A DNA stretch of 64,000 bases, taken from NCBI GenBank assembly GCA_031315865.1, contig JALDRJ010000002.1, positions 2,206,001 to 2,270,000 on the forward strand, written 5' to 3'. This document shows positions 2,651 to 55,319 of this stretch, piece by piece (the first letter of the stretch is position 1; the number at the start of each line of letters is the position of its first letter). The position numbers and the translations under genes were made by a program. Source of the stretch: Nitrospirales bacterium (lineage in GTDB: Bacteria > Nitrospirota > Nitrospiria > Nitrospirales > UBA8639). Below the pieces are notes generated by a model. That model ran no database searches and was not told where the DNA came from. It saw nothing but the letters and a program-made list of their open reading frames with translations.

Positions 2651-2704
2651 AGTATAGGCTGCGTGGAAGTGATGGTCTACAGATGCTTGCTCACCAATGC
2701 TACA
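2651..2704 (-). promoter_or_regulatory. Shared 30-bp promoter block, copy D, with -10
   Basis: The 30-mer at 2675-2704 reads on the minus strand TGTAGCATTGGT, then GAGCAA, then GCATCTGTAGAC. Its end forms a -35-like TAGACC, and TATACT lies exactly 17 bp on (2651-2656). It is one of six well-aligned copies in the window and has the best -10. The downstream gene is the exported protein at 1900-2391. Confidence 0.6.
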
Positions 2705-2754
2705 CTTCTATCGTTTTTTGTGAGAAATGAGGTGGTGGGGTGGTTTGTTCAGAA

Positions 2755-2821
2755 CCCCCTGGCTCTTAAAAGCCGAGGGGGGATGGTTGGCTTGGAGGCC
2801 CCTTCACGAGCTGTGAAGGGG
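2755..2821. repeat. Two adjacent hairpins in an intergenic gap
   Basis: A 9-bp perfect inverted repeat (CCCCTTCAC/GTGAAGGGG, 2799-2807 and 2813-2821, loop GAGCT) follows a slightly bulged one (CCCCCTGGCT near 2755-2764 against AGCCGAGGGGG at 2771-2781). Neither has a clear T-run. They sit just downstream of the promoter block D and before the 3' end of the next minus gene, so they could end transcription from 3.2 kb. Confidence 0.45.
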
Positions 2822-2865
2822 CGGCGGTCTGAAGTCCTGAATGTTCGTTAGACCTGGGAGGAATG

Positions 2866-3189
2866 TCATTTCTCCGCTTTCTTGGATTTTGGCGTAGCAA
2901 AGCGAATGTCCTCGGCCAGAAATTTCCCTCCATCTTTTCTCACTTCAGCAACCAGGCGATCGCCGACTTGCGGGCGTGAGTCTTTCGTTTCTACGCCGTT
3001 CTGCTGAAAGCTGGTTTCCGATCCGATAAGGATGGAAACCGATTCGCCCTTGGGGGTCGTGACGACGATATGGTCAGCGGTCGACTCCGTGACCGTCCCG
3101 AGCACATGCTCGTGACCGCCATGAGCCCACAGTATACAGGGGGTCAATATGAGAAGGGTGAGAATTAGAATGGAAAACCAGCGTGTCAT
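2866..3189 (-). CDS. Small exported His-rich N-terminus protein, DUF5666-like
   Basis: The product is 107 residues with a signal peptide (WFSILILTLLILTPCILWA). The mature N-terminus HGGHEHVLGTV could bind a metal ion. The rest alternates short strands (VLGTVTESTADHIVVTTPKGE, VGDRLVAEVRKDGGKFLAEDI) in the manner of small OB/DUF5666-like domains often found in metal-stress loci. The start is supported by AAAGGAGCG upstream of the ATG. It lies 63 bp downstream of the cytochrome c gene on the same strand and may be cotranscribed with it. The family name is tentative and the function is not known. Confidence 0.7.
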   Translation of the reverse strand: MTRWFSILILTLLILTPCILWAHGGHEHVLGTVTESTADHIVVTTPKGESVSILIGSETSFQQNGVETKDSRPQVGDRLVAEVRKDGGKFLAEDIRFATPKSKKAEK

Positions 3190-3252
3190 GAGCGCTCCTT
3201 TCGTTCGTAAGACCTCACGGATGAGGGGGCGGATGAATATTTCGGATGAATA

Positions 3253-3849
3253 TTAATGATGATGGTCGTCGGTGGGTTCAAAGTCTTCTCCTGCCATAAA
3301 TCGATCGAATGCTTCTTCTTTCTCTCGTTCCGCCTGGGTCTTCGGATTATAGGTCTTCATCGTCTTGATTTCATCCGGCGTGATGTTCGGGAGGCGACGG
3401 ATAAAATGGACCAGCCCCCAACTGTCCAAGTCTTTGTCGGGATTCCCGTCTCCCCATGCGGGCATCCCGGTAAATCGAACGCCAAAATGAATCACGTAGA
3501 ACAATTCTCCGTCCGACATCGATTGAATGACTTCATCTCGCAGGTCCGGCACAGGGGGGTAAAAATTAGGCCCCATCGCCGTCTTCCCGCTTCCGTCATT
3601 CGCGTGACAGGTCGAGCAATGATCGGCAAAATGATGCAGGGCATCAGCGAGAACGTCGGGGCCGGATTGGACAGGATTGCTCGCGTTTCGATACTGGGAG
3701 GGAGTTGCCCAATGTCGTGCGAGTCTTGCCAGTGTCACTTCGAGTTCGGACGGTTTCCCTTTCGCGCTAAAGGCCCCAGGCAGCAACCACGAGGTCAGCA
3801 GGAGCAAGATGAGAATGCCGATACTTACCGAGATGATCCAAGTTTTCAA
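3253..3849 (-). CDS. Membrane-anchored mono-heme cytochrome c
   Basis: The heme c site CSTCH is at residues 78-82 of the 198-residue form. The sixth ligand is probably Met129 in FTGMPAW, the usual class I arrangement. A single N-terminal hydrophobic helix (WIISVSIGILILLLLTSWLL) should anchor it with the heme domain in the periplasm. The C-terminus is acidic and ends in three His. Start choice: GGGAGG stands 6 bp before a TTG (3847-3849), so I prefer this to the GTG at 3868-3870, which has no ribosome site. The GTG at 3850-3852 is a close alternative. It likely carries electrons between membrane complexes and a terminal oxidase, but no partner is encoded nearby. Confidence 0.88.
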   Translation of the reverse strand: MKTWIISVSIGILILLLLTSWLLPGAFSAKGKPSELEVTLARLARHWATPSQYRNASNPVQSGPDVLADALHHFADHCSTCHANDGSGKTAMGPNFYPPVPDLRDEVIQSMSDGELFYVIHFGVRFTGMPAWGDGNPDKDLDSWGLVHFIRRLPNITPDEIKTMKTYNPKTQAEREKEEAFDRFMAGEDFEPTDDHHH

Positions 3850-5751: not shown

Positions 5752-7980
5752 TCACGACAAGAACAGATACCGAATAGAAAATCCTCCAAAGACATTGCGT
5801 CCAACAAATGGTAAAAAAGACGGACTCGTGCCTGGATTGAGACTCGATGTGAAATAATTCGCATCGAATATATTGTCCAGGCGCGAGAAGATTTCGAGTG
5901 ACCATTGACTGCCGATCATCGTATTGTAGCCTGCCTTCAGATTCGTCACGGTATAAGAAGGATTCTTTTGATCGTTCCCGGCTGCACCGGGTGCGGTGGA
6001 TTCTTGATTGGAGTCGTTAATAAAGTAGGCCGTTTGGTACAACCATTCGAAGCCTCCGTAGAATCCGGAAGAATGTTCGTAGGTTGTGTCGAAGACGATG
6101 CGATGTTCCGGAATGCCGGGAAGGCGACGGCCCGAGACATCCACCCCATTGACGATGTAGCGCCGGAATCGATAATCGGCGTAGGAATACGCCGTCTGGA
6201 GCGTGAGCCCAGGAATGGGGCGATAGGTAATGCCCAGTTCAAAACCATCATGATCAGATTTTCCCGCATTACGAAAACATTGCACGAAAAAACAGGGGCC
6301 CGGAGCGTTATAGGGAATCAACTCGTCACGAAAGCGTTGACGGTAAATGGCGAAATCATAGTACAGTTGGTTGCCGACTGTTCCTTTGATCCCAAATTCA
6401 TAGTTGGTGGAGCGTTGGGGTTTCAGTCCTGGGTTGAGTCCGGCGCCCGTCGGATCGTCGGGGTTGCGAAACTCTGTGCTCGTCGGGCTTTCGAATGCGG
6501 AGCTGATGGTCACGTAAAAATTTGCCCAATCCGCGGGCGTAAATCGAATGCTCCCCATGGGAGTCGTTTCAGCGAAGTTTCGACGTCCTGAACTGTCTCC
6601 CCCTACATTCGGAATATGATCCTTGACCTTAAAGCGTACCTGACTGTAACGCACGCCCGCCATCAATTCGATCATCTCAAAGGGATGAAATTCATCTTGC
6701 ACGTAAAATCCGTCCTGGCTCGTCCTGGCTTGATTGTAGACGCGCAGCGTGCCTTGCCGTCCCAGCACGTTATCGAAGTTCTTATTCACGCTGTTTTGAT
6801 CCTGATAGTCATAGCCGATGATCATACGGTTCGGGAGGCCAAAGATCGGCGTCGTGTTGGTATACTTGACGAACGAACCCCACTCGACACGGCGTAGAGT
6901 CAGAAAGCTCCCTGTAAAACAACAGAGCGGGTGATTCAAGTCCCGTGTGCCCAAGAACCCGGTAAGGCTGATTTCCTGATTTGGTGTCAATTGATTTCGG
7001 TACGTCAATGATGGTCGAAAGCGTTCATCTTTTCTCTTGGGATCGAAGGCTGAAAATGGTGTGGTTCGCGGGAACGTCGCGGGAGGCACGGCATTGAGCG
7101 TTTGCTGGGCTTGGCGAGGATTGGTTTCGGCTTCTGTCTTGGTGAGGCTTCCGGGGATATCGATATCCGGCCGACTATACGTGACGATGAGGGAAACATC
7201 AGATTGATCGTTGATGCGATATTTCAGCTTACCGAAAAAACGCTGGTTCCGGACCGTACTGTGATCGCGATATCCGTCAGAATCCAGGAAAGAGTAGCTC
7301 CCCATGTAACTCAAGCGGTCGTCGAGCAGAGCACCTGCGGCTTTGACCCGACTCTTAAAAAAATCATACGCGCCAAACGTGAAGCGCGTTTCGATGTATT
7401 GATTATCGTTCGATCCTTCCTCGATGACATAGTTAATGACGCCTGCCGAAGCATTGCCGTACAGCGCGGAGTTGGGGCCTCGCAACACCTCCACGCGCGA
7501 AATGGCATCCAACTCGATAGGCTCCAGGCGAGTCTGTCCGTCCGGTTCCGTGAGGGGAATGCCATCGATCAGAATACGGACTCCACGGGTGCCGAACGTC
7601 GCGCGTTGTCCGGTTCCCCTGATGGAAATCCGGACATCATCGGGACCAAAGCGCCGTTCGGCGTACACTCCAGGCACGATCCGAAGCGTTTCATCAACTC
7701 CCGTGGCCGGATTAGCTTGTAGGATCTGTTTTTGATTGATGACGCTCACGGCGCCCGGGACCTGTGTGACGGTTTTGGGCGTGCGTGTAGCCGTCACCAC
7801 CACGGGGTCAAGTGTTTCGACTTGAGGTTGATCCGTCTCGTGAAGTTCCTCTTCTTGGAATTCAGAGGGGAGAGAGGCGGAGTCGGCTGCCAAGCTTATG
7901 GTTGTAAGACCGATGAAAACAATGGATGCGAACAGTGAAATGATCATGCAAAAGCGCGAGTTCGTCAGTCGTTTGCGCAT
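5752..7980 (-). CDS. TonB-dependent outer-membrane receptor
   Basis: This is a receptor of about 742 residues with a signal peptide, a TonB box-like stretch (DPVVVTATRTP), a plug domain (VLIDGIPLTEPDG, VEVLRGPNSALYGNASAGVINY) and a C-terminal 22-strand barrel ending in an aromatic-rich strand (FGGFSIRYLFLS). The plug resembles the FecA/PqqU-like branch more than classical siderophore receptors; the ligand is not determined. AAGGAGG precedes both a TTG (7984-7986) and the ATG (7978-7980). I use the ATG. It is the last gene of a minus-strand operon: propeller protein, TlpA-like thioredoxin, small His/Cys protein, then this receptor. It has no STN domain, so it does not signal through FecR. It is related in layout to the receptor at 27256-29481, which also lies behind a copy of the shared promoter block. 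Confidence 0.93.
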   Translation of the reverse strand: MRKRLTNSRFCMIISLFASIVFIGLTTISLAADSASLPSEFQEEELHETDQPQVETLDPVVVTATRTPKTVTQVPGAVSVINQKQILQANPATGVDETLRIVPGVYAERRFGPDDVRISIRGTGQRATFGTRGVRILIDGIPLTEPDGQTRLEPIELDAISRVEVLRGPNSALYGNASAGVINYVIEEGSNDNQYIETRFTFGAYDFFKSRVKAAGALLDDRLSYMGSYSFLDSDGYRDHSTVRNQRFFGKLKYRINDQSDVSLIVTYSRPDIDIPGSLTKTEAETNPRQAQQTLNAVPPATFPRTTPFSAFDPKRKDERFRPSLTYRNQLTPNQEISLTGFLGTRDLNHPLCCFTGSFLTLRRVEWGSFVKYTNTTPIFGLPNRMIIGYDYQDQNSVNKNFDNVLGRQGTLRVYNQARTSQDGFYVQDEFHPFEMIELMAGVRYSQVRFKVKDHIPNVGGDSSGRRNFAETTPMGSIRFTPADWANFYVTISSAFESPTSTEFRNPDDPTGAGLNPGLKPQRSTNYEFGIKGTVGNQLYYDFAIYRQRFRDELIPYNAPGPCFFVQCFRNAGKSDHDGFELGITYRPIPGLTLQTAYSYADYRFRRYIVNGVDVSGRRLPGIPEHRIVFDTTYEHSSGFYGGFEWLYQTAYFINDSNQESTAPGAAGNDQKNPSYTVTNLKAGYNTMIGSQWSLEIFSRLDNIFDANYFTSSLNPGTSPSFLPFVGRNVFGGFSIRYLFLS

Positions 7981-8058
7981 GCGCAAATATCCTCCTTGTA
8001 CAACGAGACCGTGTGAAGAAGTTGAGTCGATGAATGATGTGTTGCGAGCGGTCAGGTA

Positions 8059-8370
8059 CTAAGCTGGAGGAGCTCGACCTTGGCGGAAGACGAGGGTATC
8101 GATGTCCGAAAAAGAGGCAGATAAAGGCGGGGCCAAGAAACGGGTCATGTGGATACTACGCGCAGAGACAAACACAATGAGGGCTGCCAGAGAACCAAAA
8201 CCAGCTTGACAGGCGAAGAAACAGAGAGAGAGGTGAGACGATTGCTGGTGACTGTGAGCGTGACCGGGTTCAGCGTGAGCCGTGGCGCAAAATGCGGTGA
8301 CGCTCATGAGCAGCAAGAGCCAGATCACGAACCCCCAAACTATGGTGGCGACGAACCGGTTCATTTTCAT
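8059..8370 (-). CDS. Small His/Cys membrane protein (DUF2946-like), copy 1
   Basis: This 103-residue product has two hydrophobic segments (near residues 8-32 and 59-72). Between them is a His cluster (His37, 39, 41, 46) followed by the motif LCFFACQAGF, with Cys50 and Cys54. The same arrangement (His cluster, C-x3-C with WAC/FAC, Gly, then a C-terminal R-x-PP tail) appears in two other small proteins at 54889 and 55997, so this is a local family. The start ATG overlaps the thioredoxin stop by four bases (ATGA), so translation is coupled. DUF2946-type proteins are often linked to copper loci. Metal binding is inferred from the His/Cys pattern. Confidence 0.75.
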   Translation of the reverse strand: MKMNRFVATIVWGFVIWLLLLMSVTAFCATAHAEPGHAHSHQQSSHLSLCFFACQAGFGSLAALIVFVSARSIHMTRFLAPPLSASFSDIDTLVFRQGRAPPA

Positions 8371-8915
8371 TGAGCAGGCTCACGAAGCAGACGTTGAATG
8401 AAGGCGATCATCGAGGGACTGTCCCAGTCACGGGGACCCATGGCTCGGCCGATCATGCGCCCATCTTTTCCGATCAAGACCGACAGTGGAAGTGCCCGAG
8501 CCATATACGCGTTCGAGACGGCTTGCGTTTCATCCAAGAGCACAGGAATGTCGACGTTGACCATGCTGAGGAACGCGCGAATGGCTTTTGCTTGGAGGTC
8601 GGACGTGATCGTCAGTAACTGGAAGTCTTCGTCGTGGAGTCGTTCTTGAAGCCGGCCGAGCGCCGGCATTTCGTCCTTACACGGACCACACCAGGTTGCC
8701 CAGAAATTTAATAGCACGAGGCGGCCCTTCAACGATGCGGAACGAATGACAGTTCCTTGCAGGGTCTTGAGTTCAAAAGACGGCATTGGCGTCCCGGCCT
8801 GTTCACGAGAGATATGGAAATTCTCAAAGTCGGAAGAGGCTCGTGATTTCTCAACGCTCAATAGCGTCATCACCAATACACAGCACAAGATGATCCAGGC
8901 AGAGGGTAGTCGCAT
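8367..8915 (-). CDS. TlpA/ResA-like periplasmic thioredoxin
   Basis: The product has an N-terminal signal/anchor (AWIILCCVLVMTLLSV), then a redoxin domain with the active site NFWATWCGPCKDEMPAL and a cis-Pro region (ALPLSVLIGKDG). Such proteins reduce disulfides in the periplasm, for example in cytochrome c maturation or copper-site assembly. Two starts are possible, GTG at 8927 or ATG at 8915. Neither has a clear ribosome site and I use the ATG. It lies 24 bp after the propeller protein gene and overlaps the small His/Cys gene by 4 bp. Its most likely job is keeping the Cys residues of those neighbours (C-x-C-C and C-x3-C) reduced. Confidence 0.92.
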   Translation of the reverse strand: MRLPSAWIILCCVLVMTLLSVEKSRASSDFENFHISREQAGTPMPSFELKTLQGTVIRSASLKGRLVLLNFWATWCGPCKDEMPALGRLQERLHDEDFQLLTITSDLQAKAIRAFLSMVNVDIPVLLDETQAVSNAYMARALPLSVLIGKDGRMIGRAMGPRDWDSPSMIAFIQRLLREPAQ

Positions 8916-8939
8916 GAAGAGTGTCACGGGAAAAAAGGA

Positions 8940-10199
8940 TCAAGGAAGTGTCACGTTTTGAACGATCGTCACGTTATTGGGGAAGGCATGCTCGACCCAC
9001 GAGATGATGCCTTGCCCCTGTTGATTGACGGCAACGGCCGGGTGTTGGGCCTTGGCGTTGTTGAGCCGTTGAGGCGGGCTGAACGTTTGGCCGCGGTCGA
9101 GTGAAGACGAGAAATAGATCTCATGGCGTACGGGGGAAAGTTCTTCCCAGGCCACCAGCACCCGTCCAGAGCGATCGACGGCCATCTGTGGCGTATCAGG
9201 GAAAGTGCTGGTTGAAACATTGAGCTTTTTCCGGGGTGAGAAGGTGCGTCCTTGGTCATCGGACATGGCGAGATAGATGCCCGGGACATCGTCCGGGCCT
9301 TCCGTGTACCACGTCACGTATACCCGGCCCTTGCCATCCACGGCTAGGGAGGCGGGGCGGTGCGGACATCCAGGGAAATTCCATCGGTCATTTCCAACGA
9401 TGACTGGCGAAGAATAGGTCTTCCCGCCATCCGTGGATCGCGCGACGACGGTCTCGCGAAACGTGTCATCCAGTATTTGCCGCCAGGCGACATACACCGT
9501 GCCATCTGGGGCCGAGGCCAATGCGGTGCGACAACAGACGCAGGTGTTGCCTTCCAGCTGGAGATTTTTCGCAACACTCCCTCCTCGATCGAGAGAACGG
9601 GTGATGTAGGTCTTGGGCTGCCGTTTCCCCGTCCGTTCATCGATCCAAGCTAGATGCACCACCCCCTTCCGGTCCACGCACATGTTATCAAACGTATGAC
9701 TTGAGGGGGTCGTATCGTCATTGACGATAATGGGCATGGAGAAGGTCTGTCCCCGATCTTTCGACGTGCTCAGCCGGAGTGTGCTGGCGAATGGATTGTT
9801 CGATGGCGGCGATTGCGGTGACGTCCAGGAGAGATACACGTCGCCTGTGGGCCCTACCGCTAAACTCGGAGATTGATGAATCGCGGCCACGGGCGGGCCA
9901 TGTTGATTGACATGAACAGCCGAAGGCACAGTCGTGGCGCCGGCTGTTACCGCGACATAGAAGAGTTCGTGCCGTTCCTTACCCGCTTCATACCAGGCGA
10001 GATGGCGGTTGCCCTGCTCATCGATCTGAATCGCGGCGCCGGACACTTTCTTGGCTCCATGATTGATGGACAGTTGCGTCCCCAGTGTCGGTGTCTGCGG
10101 TGATTCCGCAGCGGCTTGCAAACAGAAGATGAGAGTCAGCCAGACAGGCATGAGGAACAACAACAGGCATGGCTTTCGGTGGAGCGGGAATAGCATCAT
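8940..10199 (-). CDS. Exported BNR/sialidase-fold beta-propeller with C-x-C-C motif
   Basis: The 419-residue protein has a signal peptide and several Asp-box/BNR-type repeats (STDGGKTYSSP, SDDQGRTFSPR, SLDRGQTFSPP), so a six-bladed propeller is expected. The catalytic Arg triad and Tyr/Glu of true sialidases are not evident, so I do not call it an enzyme. Its striking feature is NTCVCCRTALA (Cys220, 222, 223) and a fourth Cys in NFPGCP (Cys278). All four are conserved in the second propeller at 11213-12496. Such a cluster could bind copper or another thiophilic metal. The ATG at 10199 follows GAGGG. It is the first gene of the operon running to the receptor at 5752, with a shared promoter block 88 bp upstream. 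Confidence 0.85.
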   Translation of the reverse strand: MMLFPLHRKPCLLLFLMPVWLTLIFCLQAAAESPQTPTLGTQLSINHGAKKVSGAAIQIDEQGNRHLAWYEAGKERHELFYVAVTAGATTVPSAVHVNQHGPPVAAIHQSPSLAVGPTGDVYLSWTSPQSPPSNNPFASTLRLSTSKDRGQTFSMPIIVNDDTTPSSHTFDNMCVDRKGVVHLAWIDERTGKRQPKTYITRSLDRGGSVAKNLQLEGNTCVCCRTALASAPDGTVYVAWRQILDDTFRETVVARSTDGGKTYSSPVIVGNDRWNFPGCPHRPASLAVDGKGRVYVTWYTEGPDDVPGIYLAMSDDQGRTFSPRKKLNVSTSTFPDTPQMAVDRSGRVLVAWEELSPVRHEIYFSSSLDRGQTFSPPQRLNNAKAQHPAVAVNQQGQGIISWVEHAFPNNVTIVQNVTLP

Positions 10200-10262
10200 G
10201 AAGCCCTCAAAGGTAAGGTGTGGTATTGAGCCTTGAGAAATGAATGGTCTGAATGAAGATGA

Positions 10263-10316
10263 ACGTAAAAGAGAGTTGTGGCTCTAGTCAACCGATGCCT
10301 GCCAACAAGTGCTACG
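10263..10316 (-). promoter_or_regulatory. Shared 30-bp promoter block, copy A
   Basis: The 30-mer at 10287-10316 reads on the minus strand CGTAGCACTTGT, TGGCAG, GCATCGGTTGAC. Its end provides a good -35 (TTGACT). A weak -10 (TACGTT with an 18-bp gap, or TTACGT with 17) lies near 10262-10268. It precedes the propeller-thioredoxin-receptor operon. Confidence 0.6.
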
Positions 10317-10380: not shown

Positions 10381-10971
10381 TTATGTGAGCTGTGTAAAGG
10401 CGGTTTCTGCTTGTGTCGCAAAAAGCTCGATTCGTTCGGTTTCCCCTTCGATGTACGCCTGAAAATAGTTGTACGGAATGAGGATGATGACGGCCACGAA
10501 TATGCCGGCCGCCGTACAGATGAGGGCTTCGGCGACGCCACCGGTCACGGCTTGGGTCTGTCCCAGTCCCCCTGTAGCCATGATACCGAAAGAATCAATC
10601 ATGCCAATGATGGTCCCCAGCAGTCCGAGCAACGGTCCCAAGGTAATGATCGTATCCAGCACGGGGAGGCCGCGCTTCATCCTGCCGATTTCGCCCAGAC
10701 CCCGGCTCATCATGGCCTTGGCCGGGTCATCCTGTCGATGCATGATGCCCGTTCCCAGCACGGCAAGAACCGGATTCTGATGTTGTTCGGCCAGTGCCAG
10801 CGCGTCAGTCATCTTTCCCCGCCGGATCAGGTCCAACATGTGTTCGGGCTCTTTCCCGCCGCGGTTTGCCAGGAAAAACCATCCCCGTTCCAGGCTAATC
10901 ATGACCCCAATCGCAAAGGCCAGCATGATCGGGATCATCATCCACCCGCCCTTCATCAGAACCTGTAGCAT
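10381..10971 (-). CDS. exbB: ExbB/TolQ-type proton channel subunit, orphan
   Basis: The 196-residue form starts at the ATG of MLQVLMKGGWMM; a TTG five codons upstream is possible. It has the three-helix ExbB/TolQ/MotA layout: helix 1 in MMIPIMLAFAIGVMISLERG, then the cytoplasmic loop, then helices 2-3 in DTIITLGPLLGLLGTIIGMIDSFG and VAEALICTAAGIFVAVIILIPYNYF. It would energise TonB or a similar periplasmic partner using the proton gradient. It is closely similar to the ExbB at 56806-57465 over the channel region. Unlike that one it has no ExbD or TonB next to it, so it must share ExbD with another locus. The shared promoter block lies 100 bp upstream. Confidence 0.88.
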   Translation of the reverse strand: MLQVLMKGGWMMIPIMLAFAIGVMISLERGWFFLANRGGKEPEHMLDLIRRGKMTDALALAEQHQNPVLAVLGTGIMHRQDDPAKAMMSRGLGEIGRMKRGLPVLDTIITLGPLLGLLGTIIGMIDSFGIMATGGLGQTQAVTGGVAEALICTAAGIFVAVIILIPYNYFQAYIEGETERIELFATQAETAFTQLT

Positions 10972-11045
10972 TTCTTCGTGTAACAAGGTATCAACCTACA
11001 AACATGGGAAGCTGTAATGAACGCATCATCCGGCAGTCACCGTTA

Positions 11046-11100
11046 GTCATAAAGAATCGGCATGCGAAGTGTCTAGTGATCATTGCCCGCGAATGCTACA
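11046..11100 (-). promoter_or_regulatory. Shared 30-bp promoter block, copy E
   Basis: The 30-mer at 11071-11100 reads on the minus strand TGTAGCATTCGC, GGGCAA, TGATCACTAGAC. The -35-like TAGACA is followed 18 bp later by TATGAC (11046-11051). It precedes the orphan exbB. Confidence 0.55.
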
Positions 11101-11212: not shown

Positions 11213-12496
11213 TTAGCGCGCAAGAGTTTCTGTGGGAATCCATGCCGTGTGAATGCCGTACTCTGGAGCTGCTCCCGTCCATGCCAACAGGAATCCTGAT
11301 GGCTCCGCGCTGAATTGCGGGAATCCGGAATCCCGGCCTCCACTCACTTTCGTCAGATAGTGAATGGGGCCTATTGTGCCGTCTGTAGACAGGACGCGTA
11401 GCGCCAGGCTGGGAGTGTTCGTGGCGTCATCGGGCGCGGTGATCCAGGTGATGACCGCTGACTGGTGCGTGTGCCAGACGACTCCAATACGGCCGAACGG
11501 GTCATGTTCATCCACGATGATAGGTGAGGTGAAACTCCGTCCTCCATCGTTTGAGACGGCCGCCTTCACTCGTGGATGGTCCCCTTCTTCGGTATACCAG
11601 GCTCCGATGACGTTCATGCCTTGCGCCGCCAGCATCGGTCCATTGACCGGGCATCCCGGGATTTCCCATCCATCGTCTCCCAACGGTTGAGGCGCTGACC
11701 ATCGGCCTGCCTGTAACCGCGCCGTGAAATTGTCGCGGACTTCTTTGTGTGTTCGACTGCGCCATGCGGCAATGGGGCCGGTTGTCGTGTTCGCGACGGA
11801 TGTCCCGCAGCAGGTACAGGTATTGTCATCGATGATCTGCTCGGGTCCAAAGTTCCCATGGCGATCCATCCGGCTGTAGCGCAAGGAAAAATTCCCGGAT
11901 GTCGCAGGGGAATGATGACCGTTCTTTTTGGAAGAATAGTCACGTCCGTCGAGCCAGATCACTCCCGCTTCTTCATCCACGGGAAAAATGGTGGCAAACC
12001 CATGCTCCGCCGCGATCCCGTCACGATGGGGGCGTTTGGGATCAGACCAGGTGACGCCGGCATCGGTCGAGATAGCGATGGCGATGTCATATTCATAAGT
12101 GCCGCCCCCCGGGTAGTTCACGAGCCAGTGCGCAACCCAGAATTTAGGGTTAATGACTCTGACTGATGGAAAGTCGGCCCAATTGATAAACCAGTTATCC
12201 CCGAGTGCAATTTCCCCTTGTCTTATCCACCGTCCATCGTTTCGCACGGCAAATTTCAGAATGTGACCGTTTGACCAGGGTTCGACCCAGCTCATCAAGG
12301 TTCCACCGTCGGGCATGGGCGTGAGCCGGGGAAGTCGGGCCCCTGCCTGAGCCGGGTTGTCGATGGGTTGTACCGGGAGAGTCGGACGTACGGTGGGTTG
12401 ACAGGCCGTGGCGAGCAAGAGCCAGGCAAGACTCAGCATGACCGTCAGACCATGGAGCCTGCTTGTATGTGATCGTGTCGGACAAAGATCGAACAT
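11213..12496 (-). CDS. BNR-type beta-propeller lipoprotein with C-x-C-C motif
   Basis: The product starts at ATG 12494-12496 (MFDLCPTRSH), giving about 427 residues. A lipobox ATAC (Cys32) marks it as a lipoprotein. The longer upstream frame runs through an intergenic hairpin repeat and is not credible. Propeller-type repeats are present (SNDGGRSFTSP, STDAGVTWSDP). The signature NTCTCCGTSVA (Cys227, 229, 230) and EIPGCP (Cys282) matches the first propeller (NTCVCC, NFPGCP), as does the following WYTEEGD/WYTEGPD. The two are therefore paralogs, one soluble or anchored by its signal and one lipidated. No enzyme active site is evident. A metal-binding or metallochaperone role is inferred. A shared promoter block lies at 12747-12776, leaving a 5' leader of about 220 nt that contains a hairpin repeat. 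Confidence 0.82.
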   Translation of the reverse strand: MFDLCPTRSHTSRLHGLTVMLSLAWLLLATACQPTVRPTLPVQPIDNPAQAGARLPRLTPMPDGGTLMSWVEPWSNGHILKFAVRNDGRWIRQGEIALGDNWFINWADFPSVRVINPKFWVAHWLVNYPGGGTYEYDIAIAISTDAGVTWSDPKRPHRDGIAAEHGFATIFPVDEEAGVIWLDGRDYSSKKNGHHSPATSGNFSLRYSRMDRHGNFGPEQIIDDNTCTCCGTSVANTTTGPIAAWRSRTHKEVRDNFTARLQAGRWSAPQPLGDDGWEIPGCPVNGPMLAAQGMNVIGAWYTEEGDHPRVKAAVSNDGGRSFTSPIIVDEHDPFGRIGVVWHTHQSAVITWITAPDDATNTPSLALRVLSTDGTIGPIHYLTKVSGGRDSGFPQFSAEPSGFLLAWTGAAPEYGIHTAWIPTETLAR

Positions 12497-12583
12497 GACT
12501 GCGCTTATGGAAGAGATGGACAAAGGCTTGATGGTTGTTCGCGCTCGTGACGTGGAAGGAATAGAGATTGAAGAGGAAAAAGT

Positions 12584-12629
12584 CCGAGTGAAGGCCAAGG
12601 AGGTTGCAAGTCCAAACACCTTCACTCGG
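12584..12629. repeat. Hairpin repeat, copy 1
   Basis: The perfect 11-bp stem CCGAGTGAAGG/CCTTCACTCGG (12584-12594 and 12619-12629) encloses a loop with the conserved core CCAAGGAGGTTGCAAGTCC. Two other copies at 53027 and 55364 keep the loop but have a different, still pairing, stem. It lies in the leader of the propeller lipoprotein gene. Confidence 0.75.
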
Positions 12630-12722
12630 GATTGGTCCAAGGGTTGGAGGCCGGTCCGTCCTTGGAGCACTGAAACAATGTCAAAGATATCAGGTACAGG
12701 GCGACAATGATGACACCTGCAC

Positions 12723-12776
12723 ACCATAGTTGATCGGAGCATTCCGGTCTACTGATCGCTGCTGACCGATGCTACA
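12723..12776 (-). promoter_or_regulatory. Shared 30-bp promoter block, copy C
   Basis: The 30-mer at 12747-12776 reads on the minus strand TGTAGCATCGGT, CAGCAG, CGATCAGTAGAC. TAGACC is followed after exactly 17 bp by TATGGT (12723-12728). Transcription would start near 12716 towards the propeller lipoprotein gene. Confidence 0.6.
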
Positions 12777-12909
12777 GACTGGCAGGATTTCTTAAATCGA
12801 CCGGTTGGGAAGTGCGGCAGATTCTTTTTTGAAAATCTCTCAACAAAAGATGTGTTGTGTAGTATTCGATAGCAACAGTCTCTAGACTCGAACGAACTTT
12901 CTTCACCAT
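12772..12909 (-). CDS. Possible 45-residue basic peptide
   Basis: An ATG at 12907-12909 is preceded by AAGGAGGGCAGT, a near-perfect ribosome site. The short frame (MVKKVRSSLETVAIEYY..., basic, one Cys) ends at 12772, overlapping the last bases of promoter block C. No signal peptide or known family is visible. The ribosome site is the only positive evidence. It may be a small real gene or a chance frame in a regulatory gap. Confidence 0.35.
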   Translation of the reverse strand: MVKKVRSSLETVAIEYYTTHLLLRDFQKRICRTSQPVDLRNPASL

Positions 12910-13044
12910 ACTGCCCTCCTTTTTGTCCTCAATATCGCCTGCGTTGACGAGACGTTCAGAAACTTCGACTGCCTGTGTGCGCTGGTTGCGTTTCGTCACC
13001 GTGCGGTGCATTGAGATTTCTGAATCACCATCTTGGAGAAACGT

Positions 13045-15276
13045 ATGTTCAAGAAGAAATGTCGACGAGTCCCGATGTCGTGGCGGCTGTTGTGCGCAGG
13101 AGTCATGGTTTTCCTCCTTTCTCTTCCCGCTTTTCCGGCGGAAGACGAACCGCAGCCAGATGAAGTTCACACGCTGCCGGAAGTGCTGATAGAAGGACAG
13201 CGGCTGAGGCTGACCGGGACAGGTTCACTGGGATTGACGGAGCCGAGTCAAGGCAGTTCACGATTAGGATTGACCGTGCGGGAGATCCCTGCCAGTATCG
13301 AAATCATTTCCCAACAGACGGTTCAGGAGCGGGGATTGCGGACGGTCTCAGAGGCCATGCAAGCCGCCATCGGCGTGACGGTCGGCGATCATCCTGTTTC
13401 CCCTGGTGCGTTTTCCATGCGGGGGTTTAGCGGAAATCAAATTCGTTTACTCTTCGATGGGCTCTCGCTCGGCCCGACTGGCTTCGTCACTCGTCCCCGC
13501 GATTCGTGGAATCTCGACCGCATCGAAATTCTCAAGGGGCCGGCTTCCGTGTTGTACGGAGAAGGGGCTGTGGCGGGAATGATCAACCTCGTTACCAAGC
13601 GACCGGATCGGAAGGTGGAAGGTAGTGAAGTTTCGGTCTCGTACGGGTCCTACAATACGGTGCGAGCCGGTCTTGGAAGTGGAGGAACCCTGGGCTCCAA
13701 GTCCTTACATTACCGCATCGATGGCAGCTATCAGAGCGCCGATAGTCTCATGGGGGTTCAACGAACGCCGTATGCGCTCTACAACTTGACCAGTGCCTTG
13801 TTATACGACGTGTCCTCGGACTTCCATGTGGAGTTGTCGTTCGACGTTGCCTACGATCAATCCAACCCGTATTGGGGAACGCCGTTGGTTCCCAAGTCAT
13901 TTTCCACTGATCAGGTCAACGGTGTGGTGGACACCGCAGACCATCGAACTATCGACCATCGCATGTTGCGAAAAAATTATAATGTGCAAGACGGCAACAT
14001 GAGCGCGTTGACGACATGGACAAAATTGAAGATGGCGTGGCAGCCGCTGGAATGGGTCAACGTGCGGAATCAAAGCTTTTACTACACGGCTTCCAGGGAA
14101 TGGAAAAATGCCGAGACCTACAGCTTCGATCCTGGTACCGAACTGATTGACCGGGACCGTTTCCTCGTGGAACACGATCAATGGGTCGTCGGTGACCGGT
14201 TTGAATTGCAGGTAAATCACCCGATTGGGGATTTTCAGAATCGCTTTGTCAGCGGCATCGAATTCAATCACATCAACTTTACCCGTCCCAGTTATTATGC
14301 CGGCAACGTGGACAGCGTTGATCCGTTCTCACCTGTCCAGGGGGTGTTTGATGGGGGTTCGACCGCCAAACAAATCGCCAGGGTGACCAATACGGCATTT
14401 TTCGCCGAGGATCAATTCAGTGTGCTCGAAACCCTGAAGATTGTGGCCGGGATACGGTACGATCTGATTCATTTGGAACGCAAACGATATAACACGCTCG
14501 GGGTGTTGAATCCGGCGACCAGTTTTACGGAGAATTTCGACCCGCTGACGTGGCGGGTCGGTGTCGTTTACGATGTCATACCGCAGATGACCCTGTATGG
14601 TCAGTATGCGACCGCAGCCGATCCCGTCGCGGGAAGTCTCTTCACGCTGAGTCCCGGCCAACGGTTCGACCTGGCGAGGGGAGAGCAGTGGGAGGTGGGT
14701 ATCAAGGGACAGTTCTGGGATGACCGCATTCAATGGACGGTCGCTTATTTCGATATCCGCCGCAAGCACATCCTGACGCAGGTTTCGCAGAATGAGTCCG
14801 TGAACGTCGGGAAGCAATCGTCCAAAGGGGTTGAGATTGACCTGGCCGCGAAGGTGACGGATGCGTGGCGGGTTCAGGGAAATGTGACGTTTCTCTCGGC
14901 CAAGTTTGACAAGTTTTCGCAATTATCAGGCGGAAACCTGGTTTCACGCAATGGCCATCGTCCTCCTGAAGTGCCGCAGACCGTGGCCAATCTATGGTCC
15001 GTCTATCGATTGCCGGTTACTGTTCCGGTCGATGTGGGCGCGGCCTGGCGTTATGTCGGTGACCGGTATAACGATACTGCGAATACGATACGTCTGAGGT
15101 CGTATATGACCGTGGATGCGTGGCTCTCTGTGGCGTACAAGCAATTCTGGATGACATTTCGAACCCGGAATCTGTTCGACCAGACGTATGCCATCTGGGG
15201 GTCGCAATTTTATCCCGAGCAAGTGTTGATCGGGGCGCCGAGGACCTATGAGCTGAGTGTGACTGCCCGCTTTTGA
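13045..15276 (+). CDS. TonB-dependent siderophore-type receptor
   Basis: The ATG at 13045 follows GGAG by 6 bp, giving 743 residues. The protein has a signal peptide (LLCAGVMVFLLSLPAFPAE), a TonB-box-like region (TLPEVLIEGQR) and a plug with IPASIEIISQQTVQERG, MRGFSGNQIRLLFDG and IEILKGPASVLYGEGAVAGMINLVT, typical of the FhuA/FoxA-like siderophore receptor branch. The barrel ends in ...YELSVTARF, with the terminal Phe required for outer-membrane insertion. It lies alone on the plus strand, divergent from the propeller lipoprotein gene, with no STN domain. Substrate is presumed to be a ferric siderophore but is not known. Confidence 0.93.
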   Translation: MFKKKCRRVPMSWRLLCAGVMVFLLSLPAFPAEDEPQPDEVHTLPEVLIEGQRLRLTGTGSLGLTEPSQGSSRLGLTVREIPASIEIISQQTVQERGLRTVSEAMQAAIGVTVGDHPVSPGAFSMRGFSGNQIRLLFDGLSLGPTGFVTRPRDSWNLDRIEILKGPASVLYGEGAVAGMINLVTKRPDRKVEGSEVSVSYGSYNTVRAGLGSGGTLGSKSLHYRIDGSYQSADSLMGVQRTPYALYNLTSALLYDVSSDFHVELSFDVAYDQSNPYWGTPLVPKSFSTDQVNGVVDTADHRTIDHRMLRKNYNVQDGNMSALTTWTKLKMAWQPLEWVNVRNQSFYYTASREWKNAETYSFDPGTELIDRDRFLVEHDQWVVGDRFELQVNHPIGDFQNRFVSGIEFNHINFTRPSYYAGNVDSVDPFSPVQGVFDGGSTAKQIARVTNTAFFAEDQFSVLETLKIVAGIRYDLIHLERKRYNTLGVLNPATSFTENFDPLTWRVGVVYDVIPQMTLYGQYATAADPVAGSLFTLSPGQRFDLARGEQWEVGIKGQFWDDRIQWTVAYFDIRRKHILTQVSQNESVNVGKQSSKGVEIDLAAKVTDAWRVQGNVTFLSAKFDKFSQLSGGNLVSRNGHRPPEVPQTVANLWSVYRLPVTVPVDVGAAWRYVGDRYNDTANTIRLRSYMTVDAWLSVAYKQFWMTFRTRNLFDQTYAIWGSQFYPEQVLIGAPRTYELSVTARF

Positions 15277-15408: not shown

Positions 15409-16578
15409 CTAGGATTGTGGCGAGACGACCTGCACCTCGATCCCGTCCACCGGGACGTCGATGCCGGAAAGCACGATCCGGTCACCTGCCTGGAGTCCTC
15501 CCCGGACCAGGATGCGATCCGGCTCCTGTTTGAGCACATCGAGTTGGCGAACCGCGACCCGGTTGTCGTGATCGACGATCATCACTTCATTGCTCGTGGT
15601 ATTGATCGCAGAAGGAGGCAGGATAAAGATGCCAGGCCGTTCCCGCCCTTCGATGTTCGCCTGCACGAACGTGCCGGGCAGTAGCGGCGGTTGATTGTCA
15701 TGCGCGGCGAACGGGTTCGGGACGCGCGCGACCAGGAATAGCTGCCCGGTGGTCGGCTCCAGCGCGCTTTCGGCGCGAATGATGCGGCCCTCCCATCGGG
15801 CCGTGGTTCCACCCACCATGGCGCTCAAGGTGACCGTGGGCATGGCCCGGCTTTGGTCTGAGCGTTGGCCTGAGGGTCGGTAGGACGAGGATACGTCGAT
15901 AAACGACAATTCGTCCATGGAGACCGGCAGGCGCACCTCCGCGCTGTCGGTCGCGTACAGTCGCGCCACGGTTTCTCCGGGCACGATGTATTGCCCGACA
16001 TCCACAAGCTTGGTTCGAATGCGTCCGTCGAACGGCGCTGTGAGGACGCAGCGAGAGCGTTGTAATGTCGCCTTGGCCAGTTCGGCTTTGGCGGCGGCGA
16101 CCTTGGCGCGCATTTCCGCGAGCTGTGGTTTCCGGAGAGCCAGAGGCGTTGGTGTTCCCTCGCCCAGCGCGTGCCATTCGTTAAGGGCCTGATCGCCTTG
16201 AGCTTCTTCTTGCGCCAATTGCCGCCGGGCTTCAGCCAACCGACTCTTGGCTTCGATCATCGCCAGTTGATAATCGCGGGGATCGACCATAATCAGCATG
16301 TCCCCTCGACTGAAAAACCCGCCAGCCGCGAAGGACGGGTGAACGCGGGTGACTTTTCCGGCAACCTCCGTGACGAGATCGATTTCGGTGCGCGGCATGG
16401 CGATGCCTTGCGATTTGACCGTCAGGCGCACCGTCTGCGGTTGTGCTTCGAGGACTTCGACGTGTGGGATCGTGGGCTGCTGTATGTCCGGCTCCGGCTG
16501 AGAACGATTGGCCAGGACCGCCAGGGACGTGACGACGCCGATGAGTAGCACACCGATGGGTAATACGGTTCGAATCAT
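15409..16578 (-). CDS. RND efflux periplasmic adaptor (membrane fusion protein)
   Basis: The 389-residue protein has an N-terminal membrane anchor (VLPIGVLLIGVVTSLAVLA) and the classic adaptor order. A beta-barrel/lipoyl half (GKVTRVHPSFAAGGFFSRGDMLIMVD) leads into a coiled-coil hairpin (YQLAMIEAKSRLAEARRQLAQ... and LAEMRAKVAAAKAELAKATL). The second lipoyl half (LTAPFDGRIRTKLVDVGQYIVPGE) and the membrane-proximal domain (VLVRGGLQAGDRIVLSG) follow. It bridges the inner-membrane RND pump to the outer-membrane channel. Its start overlaps the stop of the TolC-like gene by four bases, so the genes are translationally coupled; it is the last gene of the operon. Confidence 0.95.
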   Translation of the reverse strand: MIRTVLPIGVLLIGVVTSLAVLANRSQPEPDIQQPTIPHVEVLEAQPQTVRLTVKSQGIAMPRTEIDLVTEVAGKVTRVHPSFAAGGFFSRGDMLIMVDPRDYQLAMIEAKSRLAEARRQLAQEEAQGDQALNEWHALGEGTPTPLALRKPQLAEMRAKVAAAKAELAKATLQRSRCVLTAPFDGRIRTKLVDVGQYIVPGETVARLYATDSAEVRLPVSMDELSFIDVSSSYRPSGQRSDQSRAMPTVTLSAMVGGTTARWEGRIIRAESALEPTTGQLFLVARVPNPFAAHDNQPPLLPGTFVQANIEGRERPGIFILPPSAINTTSNEVMIVDHDNRVAVRQLDVLKQEPDRILVRGGLQAGDRIVLSGIDVPVDGIEVQVVSPQS

Positions 16579-22691: not shown

Positions 22692-22717
22692 TGGGTTCGT
22701 GCACTGTGCCCTTCGCC

Positions 22718-25219: not shown

Positions 25220-25397
25220 GAACCCTGTCTCCATGAAGATGAATAAATATAATCTCGCGGGGCATGCGATGGCGCAGCCGCATGAATCAACTGCAGTTAG
25301 ACGGATGAGGATCAAAAAACCACATGAAGAATATTCTTGGCGAGGGGGAAATGCCCGCTAACGAAAAGGTGATGAAGATCGTCCCGTGATGGCGTAT

Positions 25398-30991: not shown

Positions 30992-31021
30992 GGACTACCG
31001 ATCGATGCACCAAAAGCTACA
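30992..31021 (-). promoter_or_regulatory. Shared 30-bp promoter block, copy F
   Basis: On the minus strand the block reads TGTAGCTTTTGG, TGCATC, GATCGGTAGTCC, the most diverged of the six good copies. A second TGTAGCATCCTG begins 10 bp further upstream, so the site may be double. The -10 (TTACGA or TACGAA after 17-18 bp) is weak. It precedes the amidohydrolase-receptor operon. Confidence 0.45.
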
Positions 31022-31081
31022 GGATGCTACAAGTCAGCTGAGAAATTATTTTAAAAGGACGGAAACGGGAGGGAGAGAGGG

Positions 31082-50429: not shown

Positions 50430-50430
50430 T

Positions 50431-53287: not shown

Positions 53288-53836
53288 TTAATGCGAATGT
53301 CCTCGTTTTTCGAAATACTCGTCATAGCGATGGACATAGTCCTTGGCGTCGCCAAGCGGCAGGTGACAGCCCCGACATGCGGTATAATCCACGTCTAACC
53401 GGTCTCCATTGGGTTTGAATGCAGAGAATATCCAATCTCCATTTTTTAGCCCATCAGGAGCATGCATGCCCCATCCCTGGCCTTTCTGCATGACAAAGAT
53501 TTTGGCCAGACCATCTTTCATCAAATTCCCCTGCGTATCCTTCTCGAATTCGCCATTGGCGCCTTTCTTGGCGTTGAAGATTGCCATGACCAGGATTGAA
53601 CCATTCGCGAAGGGTTCTCCATGGTGGGCCTCGGCGCCGGTGGTATTGATGTACAGATCGCGCACGGCATCTGGCTTTTGAATGCCTTTCAAAAAGATTG
53701 GGAAGGACGTATAGTTCGTTGGAAAGGTCAGTTCTCCATCCTGAGGCATCCCTTCTGATTGTACCGCTGGTGTCATCGACATTGAGGTGCATCCAATGAA
53801 TACCAACATCATGCTCATTGCAACAAACTTTCGCAT
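53288..53836 (-). CDS. Cytochrome P460-family lipoprotein
   Basis: The 182-residue product has a lipobox (VFIGC, Cys16) and a beta-rich middle (FPTNYTSFPIFLKGIQKPDAVRDLYINTTGAEAHHGEPFANGSILVMA..., read in parts). A C-terminal heme c site follows, CRGCH at 154-158, in TACRGCHLPLGDAKDYVHRYDEYF. This order is that of the cytochrome P460/c'-beta family, which binds NO or oxidises hydroxylamine in nitrogen-cycle bacteria. The ATG follows AAAGGAGG. With a periplasmic lipid anchor it may detoxify NO or related intermediates made during nitrite turnover. The Lys-heme cross-link typical of true P460 cannot be judged. Confidence 0.88.
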   Translation of the reverse strand: MRKFVAMSMMLVFIGCTSMSMTPAVQSEGMPQDGELTFPTNYTSFPIFLKGIQKPDAVRDLYINTTGAEAHHGEPFANGSILVMAIFNAKKGANGEFEKDTQGNLMKDGLAKIFVMQKGQGWGMHAPDGLKNGDWIFSAFKPNGDRLDVDYTACRGCHLPLGDAKDYVHRYDEYFEKRGHSH

Positions 53837-54012
53837 ACCCTAAGACCTCCTTTTATTTCGTAATAAAAATGCAAGAGTGCAGGTGGCATCCGTAACGATG
53901 TCCGTCCTCAGCACACTCAACGTTCGGTTCACCATACTGCGTATCTTTATTGGCTGTCTACTTACGTATACATACATATGCAACGGTTTTGGACATATCA
54001 TCGGCTCCGTCA
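53837..54012. other. Gap between two minus-strand genes
   Basis: Contains the promoter region of the cytochrome P460 gene. I could not assign hexamers with confidence. Confidence 0.35.
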
Positions 54013-54765
54013 TCAGGGATAGGCCGTTGGAACGTAAAAATTCAATGGATTCATCGCGTGATAACTGACATTCGAATGTACGCCTGCCTCGGGATTGACA
54101 TAGCCCCCGACATATCCCGTCTCATGTCGAATGACGAATTCCTGGGGACTCAGATGATTGTTATGTTGACGCACAAGTCTCTGGTACAGAAGTTTTCCGG
54201 CTTCAATGCGGAGGATTTTGTCGTCGGTCTCATATGCGATCTTCGTCGGATAAGGGCGGCACGCATCAACGGCGGCATTGAGAATCCGGTGGATGTGCAG
54301 GAACGTGTTGAGCGCGAGTTGGGCGAGGCGCTGCTGTTCACGTGGTTGCTGCTTAATGAAGTCGGGACGTGACAGTCCCTTGGGGGCAGAGTCTTGAAAA
54401 ATAATTCCATGTCGTGAGTCGAAGGCGATGGCTCCGTTCGCGATGCGACCGTTGGTGAGATCGGCCATGCTCAAGTAATGGACATAGTCCTTGTGTCTTG
54501 CATCTTCTGAGTTGCGGGGAACGTATTGTCCCGGGACTCTTTTCAATACTAAATCCCGATGTCGTGCGACTTGAATATGGATCGAGGCACGCTCCCCTTT
54601 CCCTTTGCACATCATCGGACTGAACGGCTTGGCGGCCAGACGGAGCGGAAGCACATGGTCAGCGTGCACGGCGGCGGGTAGCCCGTTGATGACCAGGAGG
54701 CCCACCGCGATGACGAGGATGGCCTGTCTGCAGGTTGAACGTAGTTTGCCAGAGGTGAACGGCAT
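54013..54765 (-). CDS. Exported protein of unknown function
   Basis: The start ATG (54763-54765) follows GAGGAG. The 250-residue product has a signal peptide (AILVIAVGLLVINGLPAAVHA). The mature part contains PMMCKGKGERASIHIQVARHRDLVLKRVP, LAQLALNTFLHIHRILNAAVDACRPYP and a Gly/Asn/Tyr-rich end. I recognise no family. Two Cys (in MMCKG and DACRPY) may form a disulfide. It lies between the cytochrome P460 gene and the small His/Cys gene, so an envelope redox role is possible. Confidence 0.7.
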   Translation of the reverse strand: MPFTSGKLRSTCRQAILVIAVGLLVINGLPAAVHADHVLPLRLAAKPFSPMMCKGKGERASIHIQVARHRDLVLKRVPGQYVPRNSEDARHKDYVHYLSMADLTNGRIANGAIAFDSRHGIIFQDSAPKGLSRPDFIKQQPREQQRLAQLALNTFLHIHRILNAAVDACRPYPTKIAYETDDKILRIEAGKLLYQRLVRQHNNHLSPQEFVIRHETGYVGGYVNPEAGVHSNVSYHAMNPLNFYVPTAYP

Positions 54766-54888
54766 AATGATGCTCCTCTTTTGTGACGCAAATAACCAGG
54801 AAATCGTGGAGCGAAGGCGAAGAAGTCTTCGCCTCGCATCCATCATGTCTGGACATGACAGAAAGGATGATCGGGACTTTGTTTGGAG

Positions 54889-55218
54889 TTACGAGAAGAG
54901 AGCAGAGGGAGGACTGCGGGAATTGACTGTTCGATCGATAGTATGAGGTATTTGATGGCTCAGGGCGCTGACGAGTGGCGAAACCTGGTCGGCACATTGG
55001 GCAATGTAGAATTGTGGAGATTGAATGGTCGAGCCAGCCTTGCAGGCCCAGTCGCACCAGGATTGTGTATGGGTTTGGTGAGAGTGGTGATCACTCAAGC
55101 CATGGTAGGCGATGGAGCTTGTCAGAACGGTACTGACCAGAAAAAAACATAGAGAAACCGTCAACGCCAGGAAACATGACGCTTTGTGTATTCTTCGATT
55201 CTGTCGGAAAAAGCTCAT
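54889..55218 (-). CDS. Small His/Cys membrane protein, copy 2
   Basis: This 109-residue protein has one N-terminal helix (CFLALTVSLCFFLVSTVLTSS). A His cluster (HHSHQTH, residues 44-50) is followed by SWCDWACKAGS (Cys55, Cys59) and a C-terminal NSRSPPSALF tail. It matches the proteins at 8059 and 55997 in this order of elements. A shared promoter block lies 72 bp upstream. Metal or redox function is inferred only. The start ATG has no good ribosome site. Confidence 0.68.
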   Translation of the reverse strand: MSFFRQNRRIHKASCFLALTVSLCFFLVSTVLTSSIAYHGLSDHHSHQTHTQSWCDWACKAGSTIQSPQFYIAQCADQVSPLVSALSHQIPHTIDRTVNSRSPPSALFS

Positions 55219-55265
55219 GATAATCTGCGTTCGGACTGCCCGTGCTTATTACATCGTTTTTTGTA

Positions 55266-55319
55266 AGCTTAGCGGAGATTGGCGTTGTGGTCTACTGACG
55301 CCTGCCAAACGATGCAACA
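55266..55319 (-). promoter_or_regulatory. Shared 30-bp promoter block, copy B
   Basis: The 30-mer at 55290-55319 reads on the minus strand TGTTGCATCGTT, TGGCAG, GCGTCAGTAGAC. TAGACC is followed after 17 bp by TAAGCT (55266-55271). It precedes the second small His/Cys gene. Confidence 0.6.

Follow-up and report, generated by a model that had tools for sequence, protein, structure and literature searches.

Introduction

Several described systems come close to the one reported here, a repeated 30-bp promoter element and its 68-aa candidate regulator, F002, found in a 64,000-nt stretch of the genome of a Nitrospirales bacterium (contig JALDRJ010000002.1, positions 2,206,001 to 2,270,000; hereafter the window). 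The operators of TorR and OmpR contain several 10-bp direct repeats near the -35, and differ from our element in sequence. BldC of Streptomyces, a lone winged helix of 68 residues, assembles head-to-tail on direct repeats of 9 bp, the number of which varies (PMC5859096). The excisionase RdfS oligomerises head-to-tail and activates promoters (PMC11963761), and in Chlamydiae an excisionase-like winged helix-turn-helix (wHTH) protein, Euo, acts as a transcription factor that has several boxes (PMC4989314). In Bordetella, the DUF2946 protein CruR, for which export is predicted, senses copper on the ribosome through its CXXC; copper relieves the arrest at RAPP, upon which Rho stops the TonB receptor operon (PMC9426467). 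CutF of Rhodobacter is a related CxxxC protein, and both head TonB receptor/PepSY_TM or copper operons (PMC9426467, PMC9973294); arrest motifs of the RAPP type are also treated in PMC12992588 and PMC10951233.

Nitrospira have a central role as oxidisers of nitrite and as complete oxidisers of ammonia, and are genetically hard to manipulate. The supply of copper reportedly decides between comammox Nitrospira and ammonia-oxidising bacteria (PMC13374858). The literature searched gave no account of how Nitrospira regulate uptake of this kind and no Nitrospira copper transcriptome, and the word 'TonB' is absent from the main text of PMC13374858. A description of the motif, its regulator or the coupling proposed below was likewise not found in that literature, which left most subscription papers and bioRxiv preprints outside. 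Known relatives exist for all components; what appears new is their combination and the operator code. The element, common to many nitrite-oxidising Nitrospira and their relatives, is as a whole probably best explained as the operator of an outer-membrane metal uptake and handling regulon read by F002, and the finding provides a candidate regulator, an operator, a target list and a sensor hypothesis that are testable in vitro and in E. coli.

Sites in the window and in the host genome

An earlier note made from the window sequence had listed six 30-mers, all on the minus strand, and all six were found again (Table 1). A six-site matrix was used to scan both strands of the window, leaving each site out in turn. 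The five strong sites each ranked fifth, after the other four strong ones only (22.8-33.3 bits), whereas the copy at 30992-31021 scored -20, ranked 10,722nd and found no support as a full member; its poor score arises because one of its decamers is one base short. On the full matrix the five strong sites reached 35-40 bits, compared with a highest value of 17.9 bits in 30 third-order Markov sequences of the same length, whose maxima averaged 12.5 bits. The set proved not to be confined to the minus strand: a strong plus-strand site at 12858-12887 (24 bits in the same scan) lies back to back with the 12747 site. A matrix refined with relatives added 53955-53985 (-, 25.7 bits) and 61035-61065 (-, 21.5 bits), so that three sites, 12858 (+), 53956 (-) and 61036 (-), were absent from the earlier list. 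Six of the eight window sites have TANNNT or TANNNC 17-18 bp after TAGACN/TTGACN, bearing out the -10-like hexamers described before; the other two have CATACT at 18 bp (12858) and TATCAT at 17 bp past a fourth decamer (61036).

A scan of the host genome (3.78 Mb) gave six matches to the pattern with up to three mismatches and seven to the refined model R2 at E<=10. All were inside the window and none scattered elsewhere; the 10287 site, with 22.4 bits on the refined matrix, was outside the seven R2 matches.

Occurrence in relatives

In 78 relatives the pattern gave 91 matches in 32 genomes, against eight for the pattern read backwards, and matches within one genome mostly clustered. Together, 40 fetched stretches and the window (763 kb) held 111 matches of at least 17 bits, representing 104 distinct sequences, and the reversed sequences held none, a comparison that serves as a background control and not as an independent test, the matrix having been trained on those same loci. 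The stretches L034/L035, L036/L037 and L049/L050 overlap, and the raw counts (the 111 matches and, below, the target families and RxPP genes) therefore include a few duplicates. In 74 further loci, partly from training-set genomes, the motif was present in 66, and in none of the reversed control sequences. The motif recurs before the same gene families in relatives, the conservation upstream of orthologues that had been proposed as a check; neither of the two outcomes named as refuting, matches scattered over the genome or a lack of conservation, was observed. F002 is also present in the cultured N. defluvii (FP929003). Two genomes titled Candidatus Methylomirabilota, both metagenome-assembled and possibly contaminated, carried F002 and one motif match each (E<=0.05) on the F002 contig.

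Pattern matches in G016 and at G074:C1:770592 had no matrix match of at least 15 bits in the fetched stretches and were taken as chance or another element. A weaker variant, identical in two genomes (L063:7485-7515 (+) and L064:7176-7206 (+), 18.7 bits), precedes the gene of F062, a protein of 136-138 aa, on contigs other than those of F002 in G058 and G061, and has a related pattern match in G074; it is possibly a distant regulon member or an unrelated element.

Architecture of the element

The repeated 30-mer is a promoter element of three head-to-tail decamers. With near-duplicates (80% or more alike) left out, the logo of the remaining 91 sites read TGTWGYATSSRTNRGYANNCRTCNGTAGACA, with G-Y-A near-invariant at positions 5-7, 15-17 and 25-27, i.e., a core every 10 bp. 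The direct repeat suspected earlier is thus present, head-to-tail, but its supposed 14-base period was rejected, the self-identity of the 91 sites being highest at a 10-bp shift (0.44) and next at 14 (0.33). The last decamer holds the -35 (TAGACA). With identical contexts removed, as was done for both the spacer and the leader counts, TANNNT followed TAGACA at 17 bp in 71, at 18 bp in 26 and at 19 bp in 12 of 216 distinct sites, compared with 0-6 sites at any other spacer from 0 to 44. The site covers the whole -35 at a near-fixed distance from the -10, in agreement with the overlapping geometry that had been proposed.

A fourth decamer was found in 22 sites, and the -35 and -10 shift along with it: TA stood at spacer 17 past the fourth decamer in 17 of the 22 and at 18 in four more, several of these sequences being related. 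When the 74 further loci were searched with decamers 1 and 2 alone, GTAGAC was recovered at decamer 3 in 51/88 and at decamer 4 in 5/88 sites made non-redundant with the same 80% filter, and the TA of the -10 reappeared at 49-50. Since the terminal GTAGAC and the -10 move with the repeat number, the array is modular, with its last unit fixed to the promoter.

The position of the -10 also bears on the idea that the 30-mer is a promoter for an alternative sigma factor of the extracytoplasmic function (ECF)/FecI type, with TGTAGC as -35 and GTAGAC as -10. These two hexamers lie 18 bp apart, near ECF spacing, and a FecI-FecR pair is encoded at 25398-27072. The conserved -10, however, lies 17-19 bp after TAGACA, i.e., beyond the 30-mer, and the idea was rejected on that position; in addition, conservation extends to the middle decamer, the spacing would be lost in four-decamer variants, and the FecI family occurred in only 4/41 of the loci searched (loci, not whole genomes), which leaves an ECF promoter very improbable.

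Genes downstream of the sites

By our own gene calls, a same-strand gene start lay within 500 nt downstream of 100/111 matches, and 16/111 matches overlapped a called gene, several of these genes looking like spurious short open reading frames (ORFs). The first families after the sites were small His/Cys proteins (F009, n = 13; F019, n = 12; F017, n = 9), F010 (n = 10), cytochrome P460-type F005 (n = 10), BNR propellers F004 (n = 9) and TonB receptors F001 (n = 5). Receptors, propellers, ExbB and other envelope families thus follow the sites, as expected for the envelope-gene regulon of the earlier note; family F058, which follows the four-decamer site of the window, likewise follows one in L058. 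Placement before start codons is difficult to explain by a mobile or selfish repeat that spread with the cluster and has no regulatory role, as are the fixed promoter phase and the strong column-wise conservation between divergent flanks; such a repeat would account for the clustering of sites near F002 and for their patchy distribution, and is hardly credible.

For the propeller lipoprotein, position 12742 was rejected as the true start, because the -10 (12723-12728) falls inside ORF 11213-12742, and the true start should lie further downstream. In the same region (12430-12746, -), the likely signal peptide of this lipoprotein starts far inside the ORF, so that about 300 nt of 5' leader would follow the promoter.

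The candidate regulator F002

The regulator of the element is very probably F002, encoded at 55621-55827 (-). HTH_17 'excisionase' proteins are a common, mostly unannotated class, which this operator may make readable. F002 scored above the cut-off with PF12728 (HTH_17; 45.6 bits, cut-off 27, E 8.6e-12) and with TIGR01764 (48.4 bits, cut-off 28.8). It is a lone MerR-like wHTH of 68 aa with no dimerisation or effector domain, a trait of the BldC family, and BldC itself (PDB 6AMA, 6AMK) has the same length and the same lone MerR-type winged helix with no effector domain. The fold class was predicted from an AlphaFold2 model built on a 25-row alignment (pLDDT 83.5), whose nearest fold was the phage Xis 4j2n (Z 9.6, rmsd 1.3, 54 aligned), with BldC 6ama and 6amk at Z 8.5 and 8.3 (54 and 51 aligned) and SoxR and other MerR-type domains at Z 7.5 and below. 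In an alignment read by eye, the invariant Arg24-Trp25 of F002 appears aligned with Arg30-Trp31 in the recognition helix of BldC. From a protein with this BldC-like fold one would expect recognition of an array like that of the decamers, and 10-bp head-to-tail repeats in three or four copies would fit a head-to-tail oligomer of the BldC type. Excisionases of phages and of integrative and conjugative elements (Pukovnik Xis, RdfS) have the HTH_17/excise fold class in common with F002; they differ in that F002 sits in a chromosomal cluster of probable metal-uptake genes. Euo differs in being a tandem wHTH protein with an AT-rich box, and the available text describes no decamer array for it (PMC4989314).

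The F002 family, defined by an all-against-all comparison of the ORFs in the loci, had 25 members in 23 of the 41 loci. Full-length matches scored 88-134 bits, except in G010 (63.6), and a few others were partial (40-66 bits). In the 78 genomes, F002 was present in 32, the motif in 31 and both in 27 (Fisher P 6e-12), and in 295 Nitrospirota genomes the corresponding numbers were 71, 63 and 62 (Fisher P 1e-52); both tests ignore shared ancestry. Among the genomes outside model building (G078-G335, 258 by numbering), F002 was present in 53 and the motif in 47, and all 47 motif genomes had F002. Presence and absence of the two alternate within genera, e.g., g12. Among the 150 motif matches listed, out of a larger total, 143 were on the contig of F002, with 70 within 2 kb, 138 within 25 kb and the furthest at 53 kb. 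A site lay within 400 nt after the F002 gene in 16/25 cases and upstream of F002 in its own gene run in 6/25, so that F002 may regulate itself in some lineages.

Co-occurrence is no means of telling a regulator from a linked gene, and proteins of the OmpR/PhoB type bind to direct repeats, about 10-11 bp long, that overlap the -35; a response regulator of this kind could read the decamers, F002 being merely a neighbour gene in the cluster. Among the annotated neighbour families, which are part of all neighbours, F002 was nevertheless the only DNA-binding one in more than four of the 41 loci, and no response regulator with receiver and winged helix was seen among them (not all neighbour families were scanned). 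The motif and F002 occur together in families f1 and f3, which have clusters of different gene content, and a protein that binds direct repeats belongs to the fold class of F002. Another regulator is quite improbable, and F002 most likely binds the element directly.

Some observations concern the integrity of F002. In L155 (G077:C15) the gene has an internal TAA stop, and the 18 kb around it contain no motif. A single internal TGA interrupts F002 matches in G070, G190, G246, G260 and G291, of which G291 lacked another F002 match. In G093, from another class of the phylum, a four-decamer-like site (L151:4988, -) lies directly downstream of F002; at 11.1 bits it is too weak for the model.

Putative arrest leaders

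The small His/Cys protein pointed out in the earlier note (54889-55218) resembles the CruR/CutF arrest leaders. Small His/Cys proteins of the loci have a C-terminal R[AGS]PP; an RxPP ending was found in 75 of 308 called genes of 60-180 aa, and in 62 of the 75 a CxxxC preceded it by 41-44 residues. This distance was 41 in F009, 42 in F017, 44 in F012, and 44 in seven and 43 in one of F020, and family F019 had a CxxC at 82 residues in 8/11. An RxPP ORF lay within 420 nt downstream of 38/103 sites (one four-decamer site being counted in two registers), compared with 48/1,500 random positions in the same loci. Many target genes come directly after such a protein. A leader immediately precedes 13 of the 25 F002 genes, at a distance of 169-248 nt with the starts chosen, and 21/25 have a leader within three genes upstream.

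Like CruR and CutF, the leaders are small, with a C-terminal RAPP-like or proline-rich motif and a Cys pair at a conserved distance. They have CxxxC, as in CutF, and not the CXXC of CruR; they give a weak Pfam score or none, and, unlike CruR and CutF, they also stand before a transcription-factor gene and are combined with the decamer promoter. It is rather likely that they work by arrest.

Proposed mechanism

The sign of regulation is suggested by the fixed phase of array and promoter, which makes F002 a probable activator. Each decamer would take up one F002 subunit, the subunits lying head-to-tail along the same face of the helix in the manner of BldC on its 9-bp repeats, so that three, sometimes four, subunits would form an array ending at the decamer with the -35. 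The last subunit would help the sigma-70 RNA polymerase to hold the non-consensus -35, TAGACA, which is one base off the consensus TTGACA. That same base, and the overlap of the site with the entire -35, could also be taken to mean that F002 binds the decamers and represses, its oligomer covering the -35 and shutting the uptake genes when metal is plentiful; BldC represses whiI (PMC5859096). We infer that a repressor would tolerate varied placement, whereas site and -10 keep an almost constant distance in the 216 sites and, with an added decamer, the -35 and -10 keep phase with the last one; repression by F002 is thus unlikely.

Since F002 has no recognisable sensor, its amount should carry the signal. 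Under activation by F002, the leader would sense metal on the nascent chain and set F002 synthesis, and F002 would then fill the decamers and open the envelope promoters. The metal is probably copper, because the leaders resemble copper-sensing systems; the siderophore-type receptors leave iron possible. As a tentative proposal, the whole may form a two-tier circuit, in which stalling nascent-chain sensors set the dose of a sensorless BldC-like protein that assembles as a counted trimer or tetramer, its last subunit built into the -35, and in which the repeat number tunes the promoters. If true, this would amount to a readable operator code for an HTH_17 protein and a new coupling of translational metal sensing to transcription.

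Several points weigh against the explanation as a metal-uptake regulon read by F002. For the element, 11/111 matches had no same-strand gene start within 500 nt by our gene calls. BldC sites vary in length, are built of 9-bp repeats and include an AT-rich part (PMC5859096), in contrast to 10-bp repeats in three or four copies phased to the -35, and F002 scored 23.5 bits on the BldC family NF033787, below the cut-off of 77. Seven of the 150 listed motif matches were on contigs with no F002, and G069 had the motif and no F002. The only F002 match of G291 has an internal TGA, yet seven motif matches were found there. Conversely, 9/71 F002 genomes (G009, G010, G077, G084, G093, G183, G200, G266 and G281) gave no R2 match at E<=0.01 with stricter filters; of the six inspected, G009 has a weaker site and G093 a four-decamer-like one beside F002, G266 appears by its coordinates to be L087, which has a 32.7-bit site, and in G077, G084 and G010 no motif was found in 18, 9.6 and 12 kb, respectively. 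F002 and the motif could also be linked as parts of one transferable gene cluster. As to the leaders, 13/75 RxPP genes had no CxxxC at the 41-44 spacing, and among the three leaders scanned, Pfam DUF2946 (PF11162) was below the cut-off in the F017 member (20.3 of 23.7 bits) and had no match in the window F009 leader or the F019 member; the leaders are therefore likened to CruR and CutF in their working and are not filed as members. Finally, the best profiles of the receptors were siderophore-type and PqqU, so that iron or another metal is possible; no OprC-type profile was among the best 25 families of each of the two receptors tested, and copper is not derivable from the receptor type.

Gene content of the window

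Table 1. Promoter sites, candidate regulator, putative leaders and target genes in the 64,000-nt window.
Feature	Position	Strand	Description
Triple-decamer site	2675..2704	-	-35 TAGACC 2674-2679, -10 TATACT 2651-2656, spacer 17; upstream of exported protein 1900-2568; R2 E 3.6e-6
Triple-decamer site	10287..10316	-	-35 TTGACT, -10 TACGTT 10262-10267, spacer 18; heads propeller-TlpA-RAPP leader-TonB receptor genes
Triple-decamer site	11071..11100	-	-35 TAGACA, -10 TATGAC 11046-11051, spacer 18; upstream of exbB 10381-10986; R2 match
Triple-decamer site	12747..12776	-	-35 TAGACC, -10 TATGGT 12723-12728, spacer 17; upstream of propeller lipoprotein; R2 match
Triple-decamer site	12858..12887	+	-35 TAGACT, -10-like CATACT 12907-12912, spacer 18; divergent to 12747, upstream of TonB receptor 13033-15276; R2 match
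Triple-decamer site	53956..53985	-	-35 TAGACA, -10 TATGGT 53931-53936, spacer 18; upstream of P460-type protein 53288-53836; R2 E 0.24
Triple-decamer site	55290..55319	-	-35 TAGACC, -10 TAAGCT 55266-55271, spacer 17; upstream of CxxxC-RSPP leader 54889-55218; R2 match
Four-decamer site, weak	61025..61065	-	-35 TAGAAA 61025-61030, -10 TATCAT 61002-61007, spacer 17; upstream of PEP-CTERM protein 60266-60961; R2 E 2.27
Degenerate copy, doubtful member	30992..31022	-	Two decamers 10 bp apart and an off-register first; upstream of amidohydrolase 29548-30960
Candidate regulator F002	55621..55827	-	68-aa HTH_17/excisionase-type winged helix, BldC-like
Putative arrest leader F012	55997..56344	-	CVWAC, 44 residues, RGPP near C terminus; 169-nt gap to regulator gene
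Putative arrest leader F009	54889..55218	-	CDWAC, 41 residues, RSPP; first gene after site 55290
Putative arrest leader F241	8059..8370	-	CFFAC, 44 residues, RAPP; 73 nt before TonB receptor 5752-7986
Target: BNR propeller with CxCC (NTCVCCRT)	8940..10199	-	Pfam BNR_2 and sequence
Target: TlpA/redoxin-type thiol protein	8367..8927	-	Pfam
Target: TonB-dependent receptor	5752..7986	-	Pfam
Target: ExbB/MotA-type proton channel	10381..10986	-	Pfam
Target: propeller lipoprotein	11213..12742	-	Longest ORF; BNR matches weak, below cut-off
Target: TonB-dependent siderophore-type receptor	13033..15276	+	Profile matches
Target: protein F007, no named family	54013..54846	-	43 nt past leader 54889-55218
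Target: cytochrome P460-type protein F005	53288..53836	-	Pfam 2.8e-16
Target: exported protein F010	1900..2568	-	No Pfam match at 0.01; first gene after 10 sites in the loci
Target: PEP-CTERM protein F058	60266..60961	-	Profile match

The region 31082-52960 had no homologue in any fetched regulon locus, the fetched stretches being short, unlike the genes on both sides, and looks like a block inserted in or beside the cluster. A FecI-type ECF sigma gene (26521-27072), FecR (25398-26537) and a TonB receptor gene adjoin the regulon (window 25398-29481, -). At 15409-25315 (-), two genes follow an RND-type efflux gene (17957-21187), and a PepSY_TM protein (21465-22691) lies beside a receptor ORF; receptor and PepSY_TM together form the bfrG-bp2921 arrangement.

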